Below, one piece after another: positions 1 to 6,860 of a DNA stretch of 26,064 bases; position 1 is the first letter of the stretch, and every line of letters begins with the position of its first letter. The translations under genes and the position numbers were made by a program. Below the pieces are notes generated by a model. It ran no database searches, had not been told where the DNA came from, and saw nothing but the letters and a program-made list of their open reading frames with translations. The stretch is from Candidatus Acidulodesulfobacterium acidiphilum (GTDB taxonomy: Bacteria; SZUA-79; Acidulodesulfobacterales; Acidulodesulfobacteraceae), in NCBI GenBank assembly GCA_008534395.1, contig SHMQ01000036.1, positions 1 to 26,064 on the forward strand, given 5' to 3'.

Positions 1-113
1 TAGTTTTTAAAAAATCCGCCGTAGTTATAATTTTGCATAGCAAACGCGGAAACCGAGCTAAAACCTAAAATAAGAATCGAAGCGGCTATTAAAAATAACC
101 TAATCTTAAACAT
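1..113 (-). CDS. Exported protein of unknown function, N-terminal fragment
   Basis: Only the first 37 codons lie in the window; the gene runs off the left edge. Read on the minus strand it starts at an ATG at 113-111, preceded by a strong purine-rich ribosome site (GGGGGGA, about 8 bases upstream). The product begins with two basic residues, a hydrophobic stretch and a small-residue end (SVSAFA), a typical Sec signal peptide cleaved around residue 25. The visible mature part is rich in Asn, Tyr and Gly. It is too short to assign to a family. It is transcribed away from the radical SAM operon across a 311-bp shared intergenic region. Confidence 0.6.
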   Translation of the reverse strand, partial: MFKIRLFLIAASILILGFSSVSAFAMQNYNYGGFFKN

Positions 114-263
114 AAGCGTAATCCCCCCTTTTAAATTATTTACTAATTATCCCTTTATAACCATTTATAATATAATATATTTAATAATATTATCATTATT
201 TAAAAATTTCTGTTGCGTAAGAGACATTTTTATAAATTCATTGCCGTTCATTCTCTTAATAAA

Positions 264-313
264 TGTCACCAAGTTGACAGAATTTTATTGCTTATAAAGT
301 TATGATGTAAACA
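264..313 (+). promoter_or_regulatory. Crp/Fnr-type class II promoter ahead of the radical SAM operon
   Basis: A TGTCA-N6-TGACA inverted repeat occupies 264-279 and a TATGAT -10-like box lies at 301-306. This puts the repeat centre at 271.5, which is -41.5 from a predicted start at 313, the classic activator geometry of Crp/Fnr-family proteins. The same spacing, to the base, recurs before the Cys-Gly peptide gene at 3430-3472. Which regulator binds is inference; a Crp/Fnr-type gene lies at 5343-6044. Confidence 0.5.
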
Positions 314-424: not shown

Positions 425-1441
425 ATGGACGGGTATAACAATAAAAACCGGAATAACGAGTTTTATATACAGTGGCATTTTATAGATTCCTGCAATCTAA
501 GGTGCAGCCACTGTTATCAAAAAGATTATAACCACAAAGAGATAGATTTTAACATGCTTAAATCTATTTTTTTAAAAATAAACGAAGCTATGTCGAAATG
601 GGGAATGGGTTGCTTTATTTCGCTGACCGGCGGGGAGCCTTTTTTAAAACCTGAGGGGCTTTTTTATTTAGCGGATTTAATAGAAAAATCGGATAATTTT
701 AAAAAATTTGCGATATTGACCAACGGCACATTGACCGACGACCGCATAATAAGCAAGATTAAGGATTATAAAAAACTTTCCGAAATTCAAGTATCTTTAG
801 ACGGACACGATGAAGAAACGCATGATAATATAAGAGGTGCGGGAACTTTTTTAAAAGCGGTCGAATCTATTCGAAAATTTAAAAATTCCTGCATTAAAAC
901 ATCGGTGATGTTTACCCTCCATAAAAAAAATATAGGGTCTGCCGTCAAGATGCTCACGCTTGCTGATTCCCTAAAAGTAAATTCTCTGACCGTGGAGCGG
1001 ATGACTACTATGAGCGAAGCCGAAAAGGAGGAATTTTTTATAGATGCCCCGGAATTAAAAAAAGTTTACTCCGATGTTTATTGTAAAGCAAAAAAGGAAT
1101 TATCGGGCAAGGATACCAAGCTAGTAACATCGAGGCCGTTGTGGAATTTGATAGACGAGAATACCGGCGGTTATTGTCCCGTCGGGTTTTCTTCCATTTG
1201 CGTCATGCATGACGGGACACTGCTGCCGTGCAGAAGGCTTTACCTGCCGCTCGGCAACATACTGACCGACGGGCTTTTCAAGGTATGGTATAATTCGGAT
1301 ATTTTATGGGAAATGAGAAAAAGGGATGATAGAAATGAATGTTCGAGCTGTGCCCATATCGAAAGATGCGGCGGATGCAAGGCTATAAGTTATTACCATA
1401 ATAAAGATTTAAACACAAAAGACCCGCAGTGCTGGATATAG
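425..1441 (+). CDS. Radical SAM/SPASM domain protein, putative peptide-modifying enzyme
   Basis: A 338-residue radical SAM enzyme. The SAM-binding [4Fe-4S] motif CNLRCSHC is at residues 23-30 and a GGEP motif follows near residue 70, the usual SAM-contacting turn. The C-terminal 90 residues form a SPASM-type domain with eight cysteines (about 251, 259, 269, 306, 309, 315, 318, 336), enough for auxiliary iron-sulfur clusters. SPASM enzymes typically modify ribosomal peptides or proteins (PqqE, sactionine synthases, AnSME). The next gene, 14 bp away, is a PqqD-like peptide-recognition partner, supporting peptide substrates. No Shine-Dalgarno site is obvious before the ATG. No substrate gene is adjacent; the Cys-Gly peptide at 3524 is the best candidate by promoter similarity. 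The exact reaction cannot be told from sequence. Confidence 0.9.
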   Translation: MDGYNNKNRNNEFYIQWHFIDSCNLRCSHCYQKDYNHKEIDFNMLKSIFLKINEAMSKWGMGCFISLTGGEPFLKPEGLFYLADLIEKSDNFKKFAILTNGTLTDDRIISKIKDYKKLSEIQVSLDGHDEETHDNIRGAGTFLKAVESIRKFKNSCIKTSVMFTLHKKNIGSAVKMLTLADSLKVNSLTVERMTTMSEAEKEEFFIDAPELKKVYSDVYCKAKKELSGKDTKLVTSRPLWNLIDENTGGYCPVGFSSICVMHDGTLLPCRRLYLPLGNILTDGLFKVWYNSDILWEMRKRDDRNECSSCAHIERCGGCKAISYYHNKDLNTKDPQCWI

Positions 1442-1455
1442 AGGAAAATTAAAAA

Positions 1456-1722
1456 ATGAGAATATTAAAACTTTCGGATAATGTCAGTTTAAAACAGTAT
1501 CAGGAAAAATATATGCTTTTTGACAACCTTAACGGAAATATATATAAACTTAACAGGCTTTCTTACGAAATATTATTATTGTGCGACGGGAAGAGCACTG
1601 ACGAAGATATAATAAACAATATAATAAATAATTTTGCCGTTTCTACGGAAAAGGCGGCAAAAGACTTTGACGATATAATAAATACGCTTTTAGATAAGCA
1701 TTATGTACTGAATATTATTTAA
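1456..1722 (+). CDS. PqqD-like peptide chaperone (RiPP recognition element)
   Basis: An 88-residue protein with the PqqD-family layout: an N-terminal beta-rich part (residues 1-35, with the characteristic hydrophobic-LN-L/I pattern NLNGNIYKLN) and helices at the C terminus ending in a DDIINTLL-type helix. PqqD family proteins bind the leader of a precursor peptide and hand it to a partner radical SAM enzyme. It follows the radical SAM gene by 14 bp with a GAGGA ribosome site in the gap, so the two are surely co-transcribed. The length matches stand-alone PqqD proteins. A palindrome and a separate promoter follow, so the operon probably ends here. Confidence 0.8.
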   Translation: MRILKLSDNVSLKQYQEKYMLFDNLNGNIYKLNRLSYEILLLCDGKSTDEDIINNIINNFAVSTEKAAKDFDDIINTLLDKHYVLNII

Positions 1723-1732
1723 TTTATGCCAT

Positions 1733-1783
1733 ATCGACCATGTCGATTTAATTTGACATTATATTAGCTGTAAGATTTATAAT
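1733..1783 (+). promoter_or_regulatory. Palindrome plus promoter ahead of the zinc-ribbon gene
   Basis: A perfect 6-bp inverted repeat ATCGAC-CAT-GTCGAT spans 1733-1747. It is followed by TTGACA at 1753-1758 and TATAAT at 1778-1783 with a long 19-base spacer. The palindrome sits just upstream of the -35 box, where an operator or activator site is common, but it could also be a weak hairpin at the end of the preceding operon. Confidence 0.35.
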
Positions 1784-1828
1784 TATAATATAAAGAAAGA
1801 TTAATCAAAAAAGACCGGAGTCAAAAAA

Positions 1829-2035
1829 ATGCCTATTTATCAGTATAAATGCCAAAAGTGCGGCAGGGATTTTGAAGTTTATCAAAGCAAGCTTTCCGAA
1901 TTTTATAGGAAAACCTTTAAAACAAAAAAAGAGGTGCGATGCCCATCCTGTAAAACCAAAGACGTTATTCTTGCAAAGAAGGTTGAACTTAAGGAAGCGA
2001 TTGCATGCGGCAAAACAGGCGGCGGTTTCGGGTGA
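1829..2035 (+). CDS. FmdB-type small zinc-ribbon protein
   Basis: A 68-residue protein beginning MPIYQYKCQKCG, the hallmark start of the FmdB zinc-ribbon family, with a second CPSCK pair near residues 38-42. The two CxxC knuckles should bind one zinc ion. The C terminus is Gly-rich (GKTGGGFG) with one further Cys. Family members are small cytosolic proteins of poorly known role, sometimes linked to amidase or formamidase expression. It stands alone between two promoter-like regions. About 150 bp of AT-rich DNA follow, in which I see only a weak TTTAGTT...AACTAAA hairpin near 2068-2095. Confidence 0.75.
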   Translation: MPIYQYKCQKCGRDFEVYQSKLSEFYRKTFKTKKEVRCPSCKTKDVILAKKVELKEAIACGKTGGGFG

Positions 2036-2189
2036 GGCACATAAAACAGGCAGGTTGCCTCGGATTTTTTTAGTTCGTTCGCGAGAAACTAAAATAAAGT
2101 TAAATTAAGAGGGTGGAGGTCTGCACCTGTTTAAAAATTATAATTATATAACCATGTTTAATTTATTTATTTAAAACAGGAGGTTTTAT

Positions 2190-2561
2190 ATGGCAAAAGT
2201 CGCGGTTATAGTCTTAGAAGGAACCGAACTTAAAGAATCGGTTGCAAAGATAAGGCATGCCATGATATACTCAAAAGAAATCAAGGCTTCAGGAAATGAA
2301 ATAATCCTTATTTTCGATGGCAATGGAACAAAGTGGCTCGATATAATATCCAATGACACATCCGACTTCGATTTTTTAAACAAGTTATTTAGAGAAATAC
2401 AATCGATGGGAATAATTTACAGGGCGTGCGACTTCTGTTCCACTAGAAAGGAGGTAAAAGACAGCCTTGTTAAAAAGAATATCGAACTCGTATCAGAATA
2501 CGACGGTCATCCCAATGTCGGCAGGTTGATAAACGAAGGTTATCAGGTAATAGTTATATAA
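2190..2561 (+). CDS. DsrE-like sulfur-carrier family protein
   Basis: A 123-residue protein with the alternating beta-alpha pattern of the DsrE/DsrF family (opening strand AKVAVIVLEG, central strand EIILIFDGNG, closing strand YQVIVI). A CDFC pair is at residues 80-83, at the position where the persulfide-carrying Cys of DsrE-like proteins commonly sits (YRACDFC). Family members pass sulfur atoms between proteins or act in thiol redox. It has a strong ribosome site (AGGAGG, 8 bases upstream) and is followed after 22 bp by the CcdA-like gene, so the pair probably forms a thiol or sulfur operon. It shows little similarity to the second DsrE-like protein at 7313-7723. Substrate and partners are unknown. 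Confidence 0.75.
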   Translation: MAKVAVIVLEGTELKESVAKIRHAMIYSKEIKASGNEIILIFDGNGTKWLDIISNDTSDFDFLNKLFREIQSMGIIYRACDFCSTRKEVKDSLVKKNIELVSEYDGHPNVGRLINEGYQVIVI

Positions 2562-2583
2562 TTTATGTAATTTGGAGATTTAA

Positions 2584-3374
2584 ATGACAGGATTTGAAAG
2601 CGGTTTTTTTGTGCCAGATGTATCATTGGCGGTAGCCTTTCTGGCAGGGTTGTTCTCTTTTGCAAGCCCATGCGTTTTTCCCTTAATCCCTTCTTATCTA
2701 TCATATGTATCCGGGTTTTCGGTTGCGGAACTTTCGGGCGGGAAAGGGGCGGCGGACGACGAAAGAAGACGGAAAGCGGCAAGGAGAGCCGTTGTTATCA
2801 ACTCGCTTTTTTTATATTAGGATTTACCGTAATTTTTGTGCTTCTCGAAATGTTCAGCGGGGCGGTGGCAGATTTTATAAAATCCGCGTGGGTAATGCGG
2901 ATAAGCGGCATAGTGGTTGTTCTCATGGGTTTATATATCGCGGGGATTTTAAACAAGCTTAAAATATTTTCGTTTTTAAACAGGGATGTCCAATTTAATT
3001 TGAAAAACAAGCCTGCGGGCATTATCGGCTCTGCCGTAATCGGCGCAATATTCGCGGGTGCGTGGACGCCCTGCATAGGCCCGATACTTGCCTCAATTCT
3101 TTTTATAAGCGCCACGCTTCATAATTCGCTTGAAGACGGCTTTCTTCTATTTACATATTCCATGGGTCTTGCCGTTCCTTTTTTTATAAGCGCGGTATCG
3201 TTAAATCTGTTCTTCACCGCATTTAAAAGATTTAAAAAATATATCCGGACAATCCAGATAATAATAGGAGTGCTTTTGATTGCCGTCGGGGTTTTGATAT
3301 TCTTTAACTATTTATCGATCATATCGCTATATTTCGGCAATACCTTTCATTACAACATACCTTATAACGGATAG
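2584..3374 (+). pseudogene. ccdA: CcdA/DsbD-type thiol-disulfide transporter, frameshifted
   Basis: A membrane thiol transporter of the CcdA family, which moves reducing power across the inner membrane for cytochrome c assembly or periplasmic disulfide reduction. The family signature Cys sites are visible: FASPCVFPLIPSYLSY in the first helix and AWTPCIGP in the second half. The reading frame breaks in a run of seven T at 2807-2813: the first frame stops at 2818-2820, and the remainder continues in the next frame as FFILGFTVIFVLLE to a TAG at 3372-3374. One more T would restore a normal protein of about 264 residues. This could be a sequencing or assembly indel, a phase-variable tract, or a real inactivation. 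Start ATG 2584 has a GGAG ribosome site. A second CcdA-like gene with a nearly identical C terminus ends at 25931. Confidence 0.85.
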
Positions 3375-3429
3375 GCGGGTTAATGAACACCTTATCCTGT
3401 CCCTGCATCTTCAAATAAAAAACGCCGAC

Positions 3430-3472
3430 TGTCACAATCGTGACATAATAATCCCAAATTGTAAAGTAAAAT
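3430..3472 (+). promoter_or_regulatory. Crp/Fnr-type class II promoter ahead of the Cys-Gly peptide
   Basis: A TGTCA-N6-TGACA repeat (with an extra C-G pair, so TGTCAC...GTGACA) is at 3430-3445 and a TAAAAT -10 box at 3467-3472. The repeat start and the -10 box are 37 bases apart, exactly as at 264 and 301. The predicted start site is about 3479, 45 bases before the peptide's ATG. The TGTCA-type half-site resembles those of CooA and related Crp/Fnr proteins rather than E. coli FNR (TTGAT). Confidence 0.55.
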
Positions 3473-3523
3473 AGATATTGTTATGTAATAAATAAATAAA
3501 AATTAACTAACGGGAGGTGCTTT

Positions 3524-3727
3524 ATGAAAAAATTAATTTTCATGACAATGGCTGCATTTATGATGTTAGGTTTGATTGCGGTTGGAAACGCAAATGCAAG
3601 TTATACCGGCATGTCAAACCCTTGCGGCAAAAACATGTCAAATGCCTGCGGCAAGAAAAAAACCTCGATGAAAAATTCTTGCGGTAAAATGAAAAATCCC
3701 TGCGGAAACGGCGGCGGAATGAAATAA
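3524..3727 (+). CDS. Small exported Cys-Gly repeat peptide
   Basis: A 67-residue peptide with an N-terminal Sec signal (hydrophobic residues 4-21, cleavage probably after ANA at residue 25). The 42-residue mature part carries four cysteines (34, 42, 53, 60), each followed by Gly, in the contexts NPCGK, NACGK, NSCGK and NPCGN, with many Lys and Met and a GNGGGMK tail. It has a strong ribosome site (GGGAGG) and its own Crp/Fnr-like promoter. Short Cys-rich repeat peptides of this sort are annotated in deltaproteobacteria and relatives, and I recall that some (ACGX-type) are listed as partners of radical SAM/SPASM enzymes. That link is from memory. It may be a modified peptide, a metal-binding peptide or an envelope thiol protein. 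Confidence 0.7.
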   Translation: MKKLIFMTMAAFMMLGLIAVGNANASYTGMSNPCGKNMSNACGKKKTSMKNSCGKMKNPCGNGGGMK

Positions 3728-3884
3728 AAAAAGCCGTTTATTGCCGGCGTAGATTAATTAGCTGTCCCTTGCTTTATTCTTTATCTTTATCATTATATTG
3801 TAGATTATATTATATAATGTAATGATATAATTCCAGGTTTTTAATACTGCGCCGGTTTGTTTATTTTAACGAGGATACGGTTTT

Positions 3885-5294
3885 GTGAAGCATAAGAAAT
3901 ATAAATCGTTGCATGTCCTTCAGGGTATTTTTGATATTTTTAGATTTAAGCGGTTGAAGAACAGCCTGCTTTATTTACCCATAATTTTAATTCCGTTACT
4001 TTTTGCATCCGTTATTTTTTTAACCGTTTATGTTTATGCTAAAGTTAATGCAAGCAATCAAAATGCCGATAAAAAATATTTATATTTAAAGAAACTTGCC
4101 GCACATAAAAATACCCATAAATTCCTAAATATTTACTGGAAAACTCCTATCGATGAGGGGAAACCCCCATATAAATGGCCCGAGATTCAAAAATCCCTTT
4201 CACCATCCTCTTGCATGGCATGCCATTACGATCAATATGAGGAATGGAAGAACTCAAGAATGGCGCATTCAATGGATGCAGGAGTGGTAGCGCAGCTTTT
4301 ATTAAAAAAAATGACCTCAAAACACTGGAAGCCTTGGGTTATGAGCTGTCTTAGCTGTCATTCGCCGCTTGCGGAATATTATATAAAACATAATAAATAT
4401 AAAGGGTTAGATAAAAAAGAAAAGTATATTTTAAAAAATGGTACAAAAGAAAAAAAAGCAATGGTTATTGCATTAAACGCACTAAAAATACCTATGAATA
4501 AAGGCGCCTTAAGCGTTAGCTGCGCTACATGTCATGTGAGATATTATCGCAGATTTGGTCCTGACATTAAAAAATATATGAAGCAGGGTAAGGTTGCACA
4601 CGGAGGCTTTGTTCCAAGCAAAGCATTTACAAAATCTTATTTTTGTATAAAATGCCATCAACTTCCTTCGGATAATAGAAGACTCAAAGGAAAATTATTT
4701 GAAAATACTTACTATGAATGGAAAAACAGCATCTACGCAAAAAAAGGCATTTCATGCGAAACGTGTCACACCCCTAATGGGTCAATGGCTTTTAAAAGTA
4801 TTTATAATAAAAACTTTGTATTGAAAGCCGTAACTATTCGCCTTAAAAAGGTTAACATTAATTCCGCTAATGTCCAAACAATTTTGAGTTTGACAAATTC
4901 AGGAGTCGGACATGATTTTCCTACTTATACGACGCCTAAGGTTATTTTGAATGTCGGGCAGGAAAATATCAAGGGGAAAGTTATTAAAAAGTCTGTTAAA
5001 AGTTATATAATAGGCTGGAGCGTGAGCTTAAATTTAAAGAAGCAATATTTTGATACGCGTCTAAAGCCTTTTCAAACAGCCAAGCTTATTTATGACCGCC
5101 CGTTAGTTGAAGGAGCGCAATATTTAAAGGCGTGGATTTACGTTGAACCGGAGTCGCATTATATACGCTTCTTTAAAGCATTTTTAAAGATTAAGCGGCT
5201 GCCGAAAATTATTAAAATTTTACTTTCAGAAGCACTAAAACAAGATTTAGATTGTAAATATCTATTGTGGGAAAAACGGATAAAAATAAATTGA
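3885..5294 (+). CDS. Membrane-anchored pentahaem c-type cytochrome
   Basis: A 469-residue protein with one uncleaved membrane anchor (about residues 27-52) and five CXXCH haem sites: CMACH 110, CLSCH 155, CATCH 213, CIKCH 254 and CETCH 291. Two of them lie beside Tyr-x-x-Trp-Lys-Asn-Ser segments (YEEWKNS, YYEWKNS), typical of the cytochrome c554-like multihaem family. Residues about 310-469 lack haem sites and look beta-rich. It should carry electrons on the periplasmic face, but partner and acceptor are unknown. The start is GTG at 3885 with a GAGG ribosome site 10 bases upstream; no in-frame ATG lies nearby upstream. The gene is convergent with the Crp/Fnr-like regulator; 48 bp without a clear terminator separate them. 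Confidence 0.85.
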   Translation: MKHKKYKSLHVLQGIFDIFRFKRLKNSLLYLPIILIPLLFASVIFLTVYVYAKVNASNQNADKKYLYLKKLAAHKNTHKFLNIYWKTPIDEGKPPYKWPEIQKSLSPSSCMACHYDQYEEWKNSRMAHSMDAGVVAQLLLKKMTSKHWKPWVMSCLSCHSPLAEYYIKHNKYKGLDKKEKYILKNGTKEKKAMVIALNALKIPMNKGALSVSCATCHVRYYRRFGPDIKKYMKQGKVAHGGFVPSKAFTKSYFCIKCHQLPSDNRRLKGKLFENTYYEWKNSIYAKKGISCETCHTPNGSMAFKSIYNKNFVLKAVTIRLKKVNINSANVQTILSLTNSGVGHDFPTYTTPKVILNVGQENIKGKVIKKSVKSYIIGWSVSLNLKKQYFDTRLKPFQTAKLIYDRPLVEGAQYLKAWIYVEPESHYIRFFKAFLKIKRLPKIIKILLSEALKQDLDCKYLLWEKRIKIN

Positions 5295-5342
5295 AAATTT
5301 TTTATTGAAGACCGGCTATTTCTTTTAATTTATTTAAATTTT

Positions 5343-6044
5343 TTATAATAATTTTTTTTTGTGAAAATCGATAATCCCCAAGTTTTTTAATTTATCCAGC
5401 ACAATCGTTGTCCTTTGCCTTGAGGCTCCCGTCAGGTTTGAAATTTCTTCGTGGGTTAATTTAAATTTAATATTTATTTGGATGCAGCGTTCTAATATAT
5501 TTGTTGAAGACGGTACGAGAACTTCCTCGACCCCAAAATTATTGGCAAGATAAATTAAAACCTCCGATATTCTGGCGTCCAAACTTTTATATGCCAGCGA
5601 TGCAATTTTTGTTGAAATATATTTAAACCGCAAACCGATTAATTTCAAAACCCTGTTGCCTATGACCGGATAAAGATTTAGTATTTTGTCGAAGTCGTCT
5701 TTTTTAAATTTACAAACCTCAGTATCCGTCAAAGCAAAAGCGCTTTCGGCATTTAAAAAATCGAAACTTGCTTCGCCGTCAAACACGTAATCGGCAAAAT
5801 TTCCAAAAATTTCATTCGGCTTTAAAATCTCTACTATAAATTCCTTTCCGTATTCCGTTGACAGCGTTATTTTAATATTGCCTTTTTTTAAAATATAAAC
5901 ATGGCTAGATTGAGATTCTCCTAAATATATAGTATCATTTTTCTTATAATATTCCATTTTCGATAAGTCGTCTATTAAACCTATATCTTTTTTTGAAAGA
6001 CTTTCGAAAATTTTTAGATTTTGCAACAACCAGAGTTTGCTCAT
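5343..6044 (-). CDS. Crp/Fnr-family transcription regulator
   Basis: A 233-residue protein with an N-terminal cyclic-nucleotide-binding-type beta barrel (residues about 10-125), a long dimer helix (about 130-165) and a C-terminal winged helix (LTHEEISNLTGASRQRTTIV, about 193-214). The recognition helix begins SRQR rather than the SRET of E. coli CRP, so a distinct operator is expected. The N terminus has no Cys cluster, so it is not an FNR-type iron-sulfur oxygen sensor; the ligand (nitric oxide, CO, nucleotide or other) is unknown. It is the only Crp/Fnr protein in the window and a natural candidate for the two TGTCA-N6-TGACA promoters. A half-site (TGTCA, 6104-6108) lies about 60 bp upstream of its start. 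Confidence 0.88.
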   Translation of the reverse strand: MSKLWLLQNLKIFESLSKKDIGLIDDLSKMEYYKKNDTIYLGESQSSHVYILKKGNIKITLSTEYGKEFIVEILKPNEIFGNFADYVFDGEASFDFLNAESAFALTDTEVCKFKKDDFDKILNLYPVIGNRVLKLIGLRFKYISTKIASLAYKSLDARISEVLIYLANNFGVEEVLVPSSTNILERCIQINIKFKLTHEEISNLTGASRQRTTIVLDKLKNLGIIDFHKKKLL

Positions 6045-6255
6045 ATTATTTAAATTTATATTTAAAATTTATTAAGATAAAAATATTAGAAAGAATAAGC
6101 AAATGTCAGAACGGTTATTATTTTATTTATAGTAATAAGCAATAAACTCATAGTGCGGCGAAACCGAAAGAATCGTAATGTGAAATTGTTTACCGAGCGA
6201 GTCTATTTTGATATTATACTATATAAAATAATAGTTTGAAATATGTATGTAAAAT

Positions 6256-6340
6256 CCCAAACCCAGATTTAGAAATTTATTTTCTGGATTTGGGTAAAAC
6301 CCCTAAATTGCCGATAGAAAACATTTAAATATTTTCTATC
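6256..6340. repeat. Two adjacent hairpins upstream of the IS remnant
   Basis: The 6045-6378 interval has no supportable gene. Two inverted repeats stand out: 6256-6267 with 6283-6294 (12 bp, one mismatch, CCCAAA...TTTGGG) and 6313-6321 with 6332-6340 (GATAGAAAA/TTTTCTATC, perfect). They may belong to the decayed insertion sequence or end transcription from either side. Neither has a convincing T-run. Confidence 0.4.
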
Positions 6341-6378: not shown

Positions 6379-6860
6379 AAGAGGAGGAAAAAATACATTA
6401 ATACCTTCGAGTGTTCCTACTCTTTAGACGAAGAAGCTATTTTAAAAGACGCTATGTATGACGGCTATTATGCTATAGAAACCAACGACTTAGAGCTTTC
6501 CCCTAAAGAGATAATTTCTAATTACGGAATGCTCTGGCAGATAGAAGAGTCGTTCCGCATTATGAAATCCACCATGGAAGTAAGACCCGTGTTCCACTGG
6601 ACGGAAGGAAGAATAAAAGGGCACTTTATGGTATGATTCCTATCCTTCCTTCTTGAAAGAAATTTGGAATTTAAACTTAAAGAGAAAGATATAGATTGTT
6701 CGCCGGAAAGAATAAAAGAAGCGCTTAATTCTTTGAATTTAGAGAAGCCGATATGGATAGCAACAAATTTATCATGAAGGTAAAGCCTATGCCTCTTGCG
6801 CATAACATATTTACCGCGCTAAGAATAAACTACCCGAAAAACATCTCCGATACCGCTTAA
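6379..6860 (+). pseudogene. IS1634-like (IS4-group) transposase, C-terminal remnant
   Basis: The frame from 6379 reads DGYYAIETND, then YGMLWQIEESFRIMKS and RPVFHWTEGRIKGHFMV, the conserved C-terminal catalytic block of IS1634/IS4-type DDE transposases, including the YREK-like Tyr/Arg/Glu context. The N-terminal two thirds are missing: a stop lies at 6376-6378. A TGA at 6634-6636 interrupts the frame where the family continues as FLSFLLERN, and a frameshift near 6745-6755 leads to the end VKPMPLAHNIFTALRIN and TAA at 6858-6860. At least three lesions show it is dead. It overlaps no other gene. Confidence 0.85.

Follow-up and report, generated by a model that had tools for sequence, protein, structure and literature searches.

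What does a radical S-adenosylmethionine (SAM)/SPASM enzyme modify when no precursor peptide is encoded beside it? The question is raised by a stretch of 26,064 nucleotides (the window, contig SHMQ01000036.1 of assembly GCA_008534395.1; contig C36 of genome G000 in our numbering, in which loci carry an L) from Candidatus Acidulodesulfobacterium acidiphilum, whose assembly comprises 2.09 Mb in 70 contigs. The organism belongs to the Candidatus Acidulodesulfobacterales (SZUA-79; here, the family), an acid-mine group (PMC6776010). The window encodes such an enzyme, followed by a PqqD-like protein and, 2 kb on, by a Cys-Gly peptide, which the initial annotation proposed as the substrate. Sequence comparison across 386 draft genomes, one per species (30 of the family and 356 others), together with predicted structures, points elsewhere. 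The pair is probably (we put it at about 0.8) a maturase of ribosomally synthesised and post-translationally modified peptides (RiPPs) whose cognate substrates would be precursors of 34–40 residues and not the Cys-Gly peptide. The features on which this turns are the following.

264..279, no strand: operator TGTCACCAAGTTGACA 5' of the enzyme gene, with a -10-like TATGAT at 301-306, 32 bp from the operator centre
425..1441, plus strand: predicted radical SAM/SPASM peptide maturase, 338 amino acids (PF04055, PF13186)
1456..1722, plus strand: predicted PqqD-like leader-binding protein (PF05402), located after the enzyme in most relatives
3430..3445, no strand: operator TGTCACAATCGTGACA 5' of the Cys-Gly peptide gene, with a -10-like TAAAAT at 3467-3472, 32 bp from the centre; kept in L066 and L067, with one mismatch in L043
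3524..3727, plus strand: Cys-Gly peptide, 67 amino acids, predicted to be exported, carrying the N-x-C-G motif four times; shares the enzyme's regulation and is probably not its cognate substrate

A family of probable short precursors

A leader-pattern search of the family exposed a 34-residue gene product with the consensus MKK-x-Y-x-AP-x-F-x-EI-x-AEEFY...YGxKDSCYS. Its relatives have 34–40 residues and combine a Y-x-x-P leader, an AEEF block and a Cys-bearing tail, YGxKDSCYS or SCxxCxxC, which gives the broader consensus MKK-x-Y-x-x-P ... EI-x-AEEF ... YG-x-x-D-SCYS, or tails SCxxCxxC; MKKVYDAPMFAEIPAEEFYSLINKDYGLKDSCYS, MKKTYNVPLFQEIPAEEFYSLIMEDYGMKDLCYSCKSCK and MKSRYEAPVFQEISAEEFNCILMKNYGNINSCHTCRACF are examples. 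Y5, P8, AEEF, YG and SC are invariant in the alignment, and every core holds Cys. The precursor gene lies 25–250 bp 3' of PqqD in 17 of the 23 readable enzyme loci of the family; in the remaining six, among them that of the window's genome, it is found elsewhere in the same genome. Precursors are encoded by 27 of the 30 family genomes and by 0 of the 356 others (E ≤ 1e-5). They are under purifying selection, the mean proportion of synonymous differences (pS) being 0.60 vs. 0.16 for non-synonymous ones (pN) over 66 pairs. Scanning the precursors against Pfam and NCBIfam returned no family, and a literature search for the tail sequences returned no paper.

The window's own genome has four precursor copies (C1:118469, C1:116617, C1:115441 and C66:2695). 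It also has a second enzyme copy, on contig C1, behind which PqqD and then a precursor with the tail KDSCYS are encoded. Another copy stands behind an exported DsrE-like protein (tail LCYSCKSCK), another behind a 206-residue exported protein (tail NSCHTCRACF), and the C66 copy behind a relative of the latter (tail DSCYV). The pairing of a DsrE-like protein with an SCxxCxxC-tail precursor recurs in G002, G012, G013, G020 and G043. The 206-residue protein is predicted, at modest confidence, to fold like ZraP, CnrX, CpxP and Spy (Foldseek E of 0.05 or worse, probability 1.0), and in three of seven aligned members it carries an N-terminal NPCG or NACG segment like that of the Cys-Gly peptide; together these traits would suggest a metal or envelope-stress theme. 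The precursor classes may thus be read as co-encoded with different partners: PqqD for SCYS tails, the exported DsrE-like protein for SCYSCKSCK tails, and the ZraP/CnrX-like periplasmic protein for SCHTCRACF tails. Since enzyme and precursor are on different contigs in G020, G021, G023 and G024, the enzyme must work in trans there.

Distant relatives of the enzyme provide an independent parallel for this assignment in their YxxP peptides with Cys tails. Enzymes of 43–47% identity (Anaerovorax, Syntrophomonas, Lachnospiraceae and others) each come with an open reading frame of 26–53 amino acids, mostly directly behind PqqD, of the YxxP type and with the tail WCFGCTNCNCN or similar (CxxCxxCxC). 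Those of 35–40% identity (Desulfobacterales, Thermodesulfovibrionales, archaea and others) are mostly found with YEKP...CRQCSGCHGCR-type peptides. Both family-type and CRQCSSCHACR-type systems are present in Candidatus Acididesulfobacter diazotrophicus (G021; L065 and L123). In relatives from gut Firmicutes, archaea and others (L099-L109, L112-L124), the enzyme, PqqD and a YxxP precursor with a CxxCxxC tail are part of larger clusters that also encode proteins with a 'QKDDGGW' terpene-cyclase-like motif as well as amidohydrolase-like and asparagine-ligase-like proteins; these clusters look like an uncharacterised biosynthetic system.

Identity of the enzyme pair

Domain matches and a precursor search bear out the description of the pair in the initial annotation as a radical SAM/SPASM enzyme and a PqqD-like protein without an adjoining precursor. 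The enzyme matches Radical_SAM (PF04055) with 80 bits and SPASM (PF13186) with 29.9 bits, and both scores exceed the cut-off. Alignment A1 shows CNLRCxHC and seven cysteines near the C-terminus to be invariant, and the enzyme has the radical SAM core CxxxCxxC and the SPASM cysteines that mark a radical SAM/SPASM RiPP system. The PqqD-like protein reaches 46.1 bits against PF05402 (cut-off 23.4) and is a discrete, predicted leader-binding protein. A short precursor is encoded with the pair in the 17 family loci and at the second copy that the window's genome has. The window itself has none beside the pair, and a profile hidden Markov model run over six frames found no precursor remnant there. 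The pair at 425-1722 looks like a real peptide-modifying system and is, as judged by gene content, a member of the broad kind that combines a radical SAM/SPASM enzyme, a discrete PqqD and a short precursor.

The initial annotation had referred to a family of enzymes with ACGX-type partners. Such a family exists as TIGR04340 ('ACGX system'), and it is the best NCBIfam match of the enzyme by E-value; the enzyme, however, scores 134.6 bits against a cut-off of 400, with SbtM level at 134.3. The scores for PQQ_syn_pqqE (64.5 bits, cut-off 381) and the PapB model (89 bits, cut-off 340) are likewise low, and among the matches listed the enzyme stays below the cut-off of every named NCBIfam family, TIGR04340 included. 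Membership of TIGR04340 was ruled out on this score, and because a Cys-Gly peptide lies within 5 kb in only three loci while another precursor adjoins the pair in most. None of the 386 genomes has a TIGR04340 member above cut-off; the nearest score, 257 bits, belongs to G269 (L215), and no obvious Cys-Gly peptide is present in the 3.5 kb of that locus. In a profile search of the PDB, the best matches turned out to be SkfB (6efn) and the radical SAM protein 5wgg, which we take to be CteB.

The Cys-Gly peptide and its operator

The 67-residue peptide is present as annotated, with the motifs NPCGK, NACGK, NSCGK and NPCGN following a hydrophobic, signal-like N-terminus. None of 100,000 shuffles of its mature part reaches three or more N[PAS]CG[KN] motifs, and in the 30 family genomes the doubled N-x-C-G DNA pattern occurs in peptide genes only, plus one unrelated-looking site in G043. 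The peptide is under purifying selection. Its distribution does not follow that of the enzyme: it is encoded in 5 of the 30 family genomes vs. 23 with the enzyme. No enzyme was detected in two of the five, G002, whose contigs span the site expected for the window enzyme and lack it there, and G019, whose contig starts just inside that site, so that loss is not proven. In G017, peptide and enzyme are on different contigs. The two are within 5 kb of each other in three loci only, namely the window, the C1 second copy and G012. Compared with the precursor leader, the peptide scores at most 1.4 bits, i.e., no similarity, and in place of that leader it has a predicted Sec signal, as read from its signal-like N-terminus. 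In G017 (contig C7, L068) the peptide gene is located in a sulfur-oxidation cluster of the sox type (its sox genes were named by eye) together with genes for two exported DsrE-like proteins, CcdA and a thioredoxin-like protein, a context pointing to periplasmic sulfur handling.

The regulator site that the initial annotation saw at both promoters, with the same geometry, was confirmed: each has a perfect TGTCAN6TGACA and a -10-like hexamer (5/6) exactly 32 bp from its centre. TGTCACCAAGTTGACA and TGTCACAATCGTGACA are the only matches in the window at up to one mismatch (0.22 expected) and the only perfect ones in the 2.09-Mb genome. Judging by these sites, the co-regulation of enzyme and peptide appears genuine. 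Related sites are also found 5' of an exported DsrE-like gene (xDsrE) and of ZraP-like genes. Between the ZraP-like gene and an orthologue (75%) of the Crp/Fnr-type regulator encoded at 5343-6044 of the window, G016 and G044 have the perfect palindrome TGTCACTTAAGTGACA, and in G043 a TGTCACTTAAGTGACA site lies 5' of the ZraP-like gene. Perfect operators in the other family genomes are mostly at unrelated genes, only the Crp/ZraP-like sites of G016, G043 and G044 being informative. Because of the position of TGTCACTTAAGTGACA next to its orthologue, the window's Crp protein is likely to regulate the whole set (enzyme, Cys-Gly peptide, xDsrE and ZraP-like genes). Since the operator is common to the xDsrE/ZraP-like transcripts, co-regulation does not single out the Cys-Gly peptide. 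Most probably, the latter is an exported peptide rich in Cys and Met under the same control as the enzyme, and it would serve, most likely unmodified, as a periplasmic thiol or metal ligand.

Neighbouring genes and history of the locus

The remaining features of this part of the window are as follows.

3..113, minus strand: 5' end of xDsrE, cut by the contig end and divergent from the enzyme gene; 84% identity to residues 1-37 of the C1 copy
211..226, no strand: degenerate operator TGTTGCGTAAGAGACA in the xDsrE promoter, counterpart of TGTCTCTTACGCGACA / TGTCACGCAAGAGACA at xDsrE promoters in L043, L186 and L052
1829..2035, plus strand: FmdB-type zinc-ribbon protein (PF09723) with a conserved ACGKTxGxFG tail; linked in L043 (truncated), L052 and L054
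2190..2561, plus strand: cytoplasmic DsrE-like protein; AlphaFold model with a predicted local distance difference test (pLDDT) score of 78, best PDB matches 2fb6 and the DsrE/DsrF-like 3mc3
2584..3374, plus strand: CcdA-like or DsbD-transmembrane-like gene, with a one-base frame break (2584-2820 / 2670-3374) in a T7 run near 2810, which G019 (L067) shares
3885..5294, plus strand: multihaem c-type cytochrome linked to the Cys-Gly peptide, with the same neighbour in L043, L052, L066 and L067
5343..6044, minus strand: Crp/Fnr-type regulator (PF00027, PF13545), likely binder of TGTCAN6TGACA; its 75% orthologue adjoins TGTCACTTAAGTGACA in G016 and G044

The FmdB zinc ribbon and the xDsrE start (113..3) went unmentioned in the initial annotation. 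An EAIACGKTxGxFG tail, in which the ACGK motif appears again, is carried by the FmdB ribbons at 1829-2035 of the window, 9670-9876 of L052 and 7712-7900 of L054, and each of the three lies near the enzyme or the Cys-Gly peptide. As to the two thiol genes noted between enzyme and peptide, comparison of the model with the PDB predicts a DsrE fold for one, and the CcdA-like gene is real, yet frame-broken. The break, shared by two genomes of different genera, is identical in the window (2584-3374) and L067 (545-1335); at the T run, T TTT TTA has the phasing of a -1 slippery heptamer, and the gene may be either a pseudogene or one read by slippage.

G020, a genome of another genus, encodes the sister of the window enzyme (92% identity, support 99/99); the second enzyme of the window's own genome, at 71% identity, is not its sister. 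The xDsrE promoter directly adjoins FmdB in G002, in G012 and in the C1 locus of the window's genome; in the window, the 1.5-kb enzyme-PqqD segment lies between them. The island reads as a mosaic. Positions 2165-6270 are 94% identical to G019, and as that genome belongs to another genus, this suggests recent transfer. A transposase fragment (6454-6636) is located beside the metal-efflux part of the contig (CusABC-like, CopA-like).

Proposed mechanism and alternatives

To the gene families, precursor adjacency, selection and regulon sites established by comparing sequences, the proposed mechanism adds a chemistry predicted from the same sequences. The PqqD-like protein would bind the leader (Y-x-x-P...AEEF) and present the short precursor to the radical SAM/SPASM enzyme, which would modify the C-terminal Cys-containing core. 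The modification would most likely be a thioether, SkfB and a CteB-type enzyme being the nearest relatives with a solved structure; the product may, more speculatively, be used in or near the envelope. The precursors would be supplied from right behind PqqD, as in most relatives, and also from behind the exported DsrE-like and ZraP/CnrX-like proteins. As the window cassette sits between xDsrE and FmdB without a precursor of its own, its enzyme presumably acts in trans, either on the four precursors encoded at other places of the genome or on one close behind the end of the contig, which breaks off within xDsrE. The Cys-Gly peptide would belong to the same Crp regulon and be exported without serving as a substrate. 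Three facts weigh against this reading: no precursor stands beside the window copy, whose substrate is deduced from relatives; in five genomes a precursor is present but an enzyme was not detected, although several of them have contig ends nearby; and the Cys-Gly peptide has the enzyme's operator and, in three loci, its linkage, which would also fit a substrate.

The Cys-Gly peptide as sole substrate is ruled out by distribution, leader and adjacency. That it is modified before Sec export, alone or besides the short precursors, we consider improbable. The unique operator shared with the enzyme at identical -10 spacing, the linkage in three loci, the fourfold N-x-C-G motif under purifying selection and the existence of Sec-signal RiPP precursors with Cys motifs, the bufferins (PMC12452194), would fit such a role. 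Co-occurrence, which the initial annotation had named as a check, is poor, however (five genomes, two without detected enzyme and a third with it on another contig), the peptide lacks leader similarity, the operator also serves the xDsrE/ZraP-like transcripts, and the pair in relatives has another precursor beside it, the very finding that was to speak against the proposal. Maturation of the Cys-Gly peptide as a bufferin-like copper-binding RiPP by an MNIO enzyme is less probable by far: the signal-like N-terminus with repeated CG motifs, the metal-efflux genes on the same contig and the N-x-C-G motif at the N-terminus of the ZraP/CnrX-like protein are in keeping with it, but MNIO (PF05114) was found in 0 of the 30 family genomes, with controls positive, and this route was excluded.

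If the short precursors are the substrates, as we prefer, their products may still differ in kind. A redox cofactor or metal ligand, following the logic of pyrroloquinoline quinone (PQQ) or mycofactocin and not that of a secreted bioactive peptide, is a possibility that we hold only tentatively. The system is near-universal in the family and keeps a stable place on the chromosome, frequently in a dnaJ/bioB-OmpA-bioC/F context; no gene for a transporter, a protease or immunity was seen beside it, and the small size and KP/YxxP leader recall PqqA; the cores, however, differ among paralogues (SCYS, SCYSCKSCK, SCHTCRACF), unlike a single cofactor. It is also conceivable, though doubtful at present, that one Crp-switched maturase serves the three Cys-tailed precursor classes, each with its own partner, and that all of these and the Cys-Gly peptide make up a system by which acid-mine bacteria handle thiols and metals in the envelope, with the modified peptides acting alongside dedicated exported proteins.

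In general, a tempting and probably wrong substrate gives way to a concrete conserved precursor family that is absent from the libraries searched. This family opens to direct tests the chemistry of an enzyme clade that acid-mine bacteria have in common with gut Firmicutes and archaea. The sorting of precursor tails by exported partner suggests that the modified peptides would act in the envelope with proteins, not as free antibiotics.

Comparison with known systems

Sec-exported precursors with Cys motifs are established for bufferins (PMC12452194), which the Cys-Gly peptide resembles in its signal-like N-terminus and CG motifs; it differs in that the family has no MNIO. The ACGX system (TIGR04340) is the best NCBIfam match of the enzyme, whereas in relatives the pair adjoins precursors of another type than Cys-Gly repeat peptides. 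PqqE/PqqD/PqqA is similar in its separate PqqD and short precursor with a KP/YxxP-type leader and dissimilar in its core, since none here is PqqA-like. SkfB and CteB (PDB 6efn, 5wgg), the sactipeptide and ranthipeptide thioether synthases, carry a built-in PqqD-like domain, and enzymes of their type make thioethers. The present system differs from them in having the PqqD-like part as a separate protein and a core with a single Cys or CxxCxxC; it shares with them the radical SAM and SPASM fold family and a short Cys-containing precursor.

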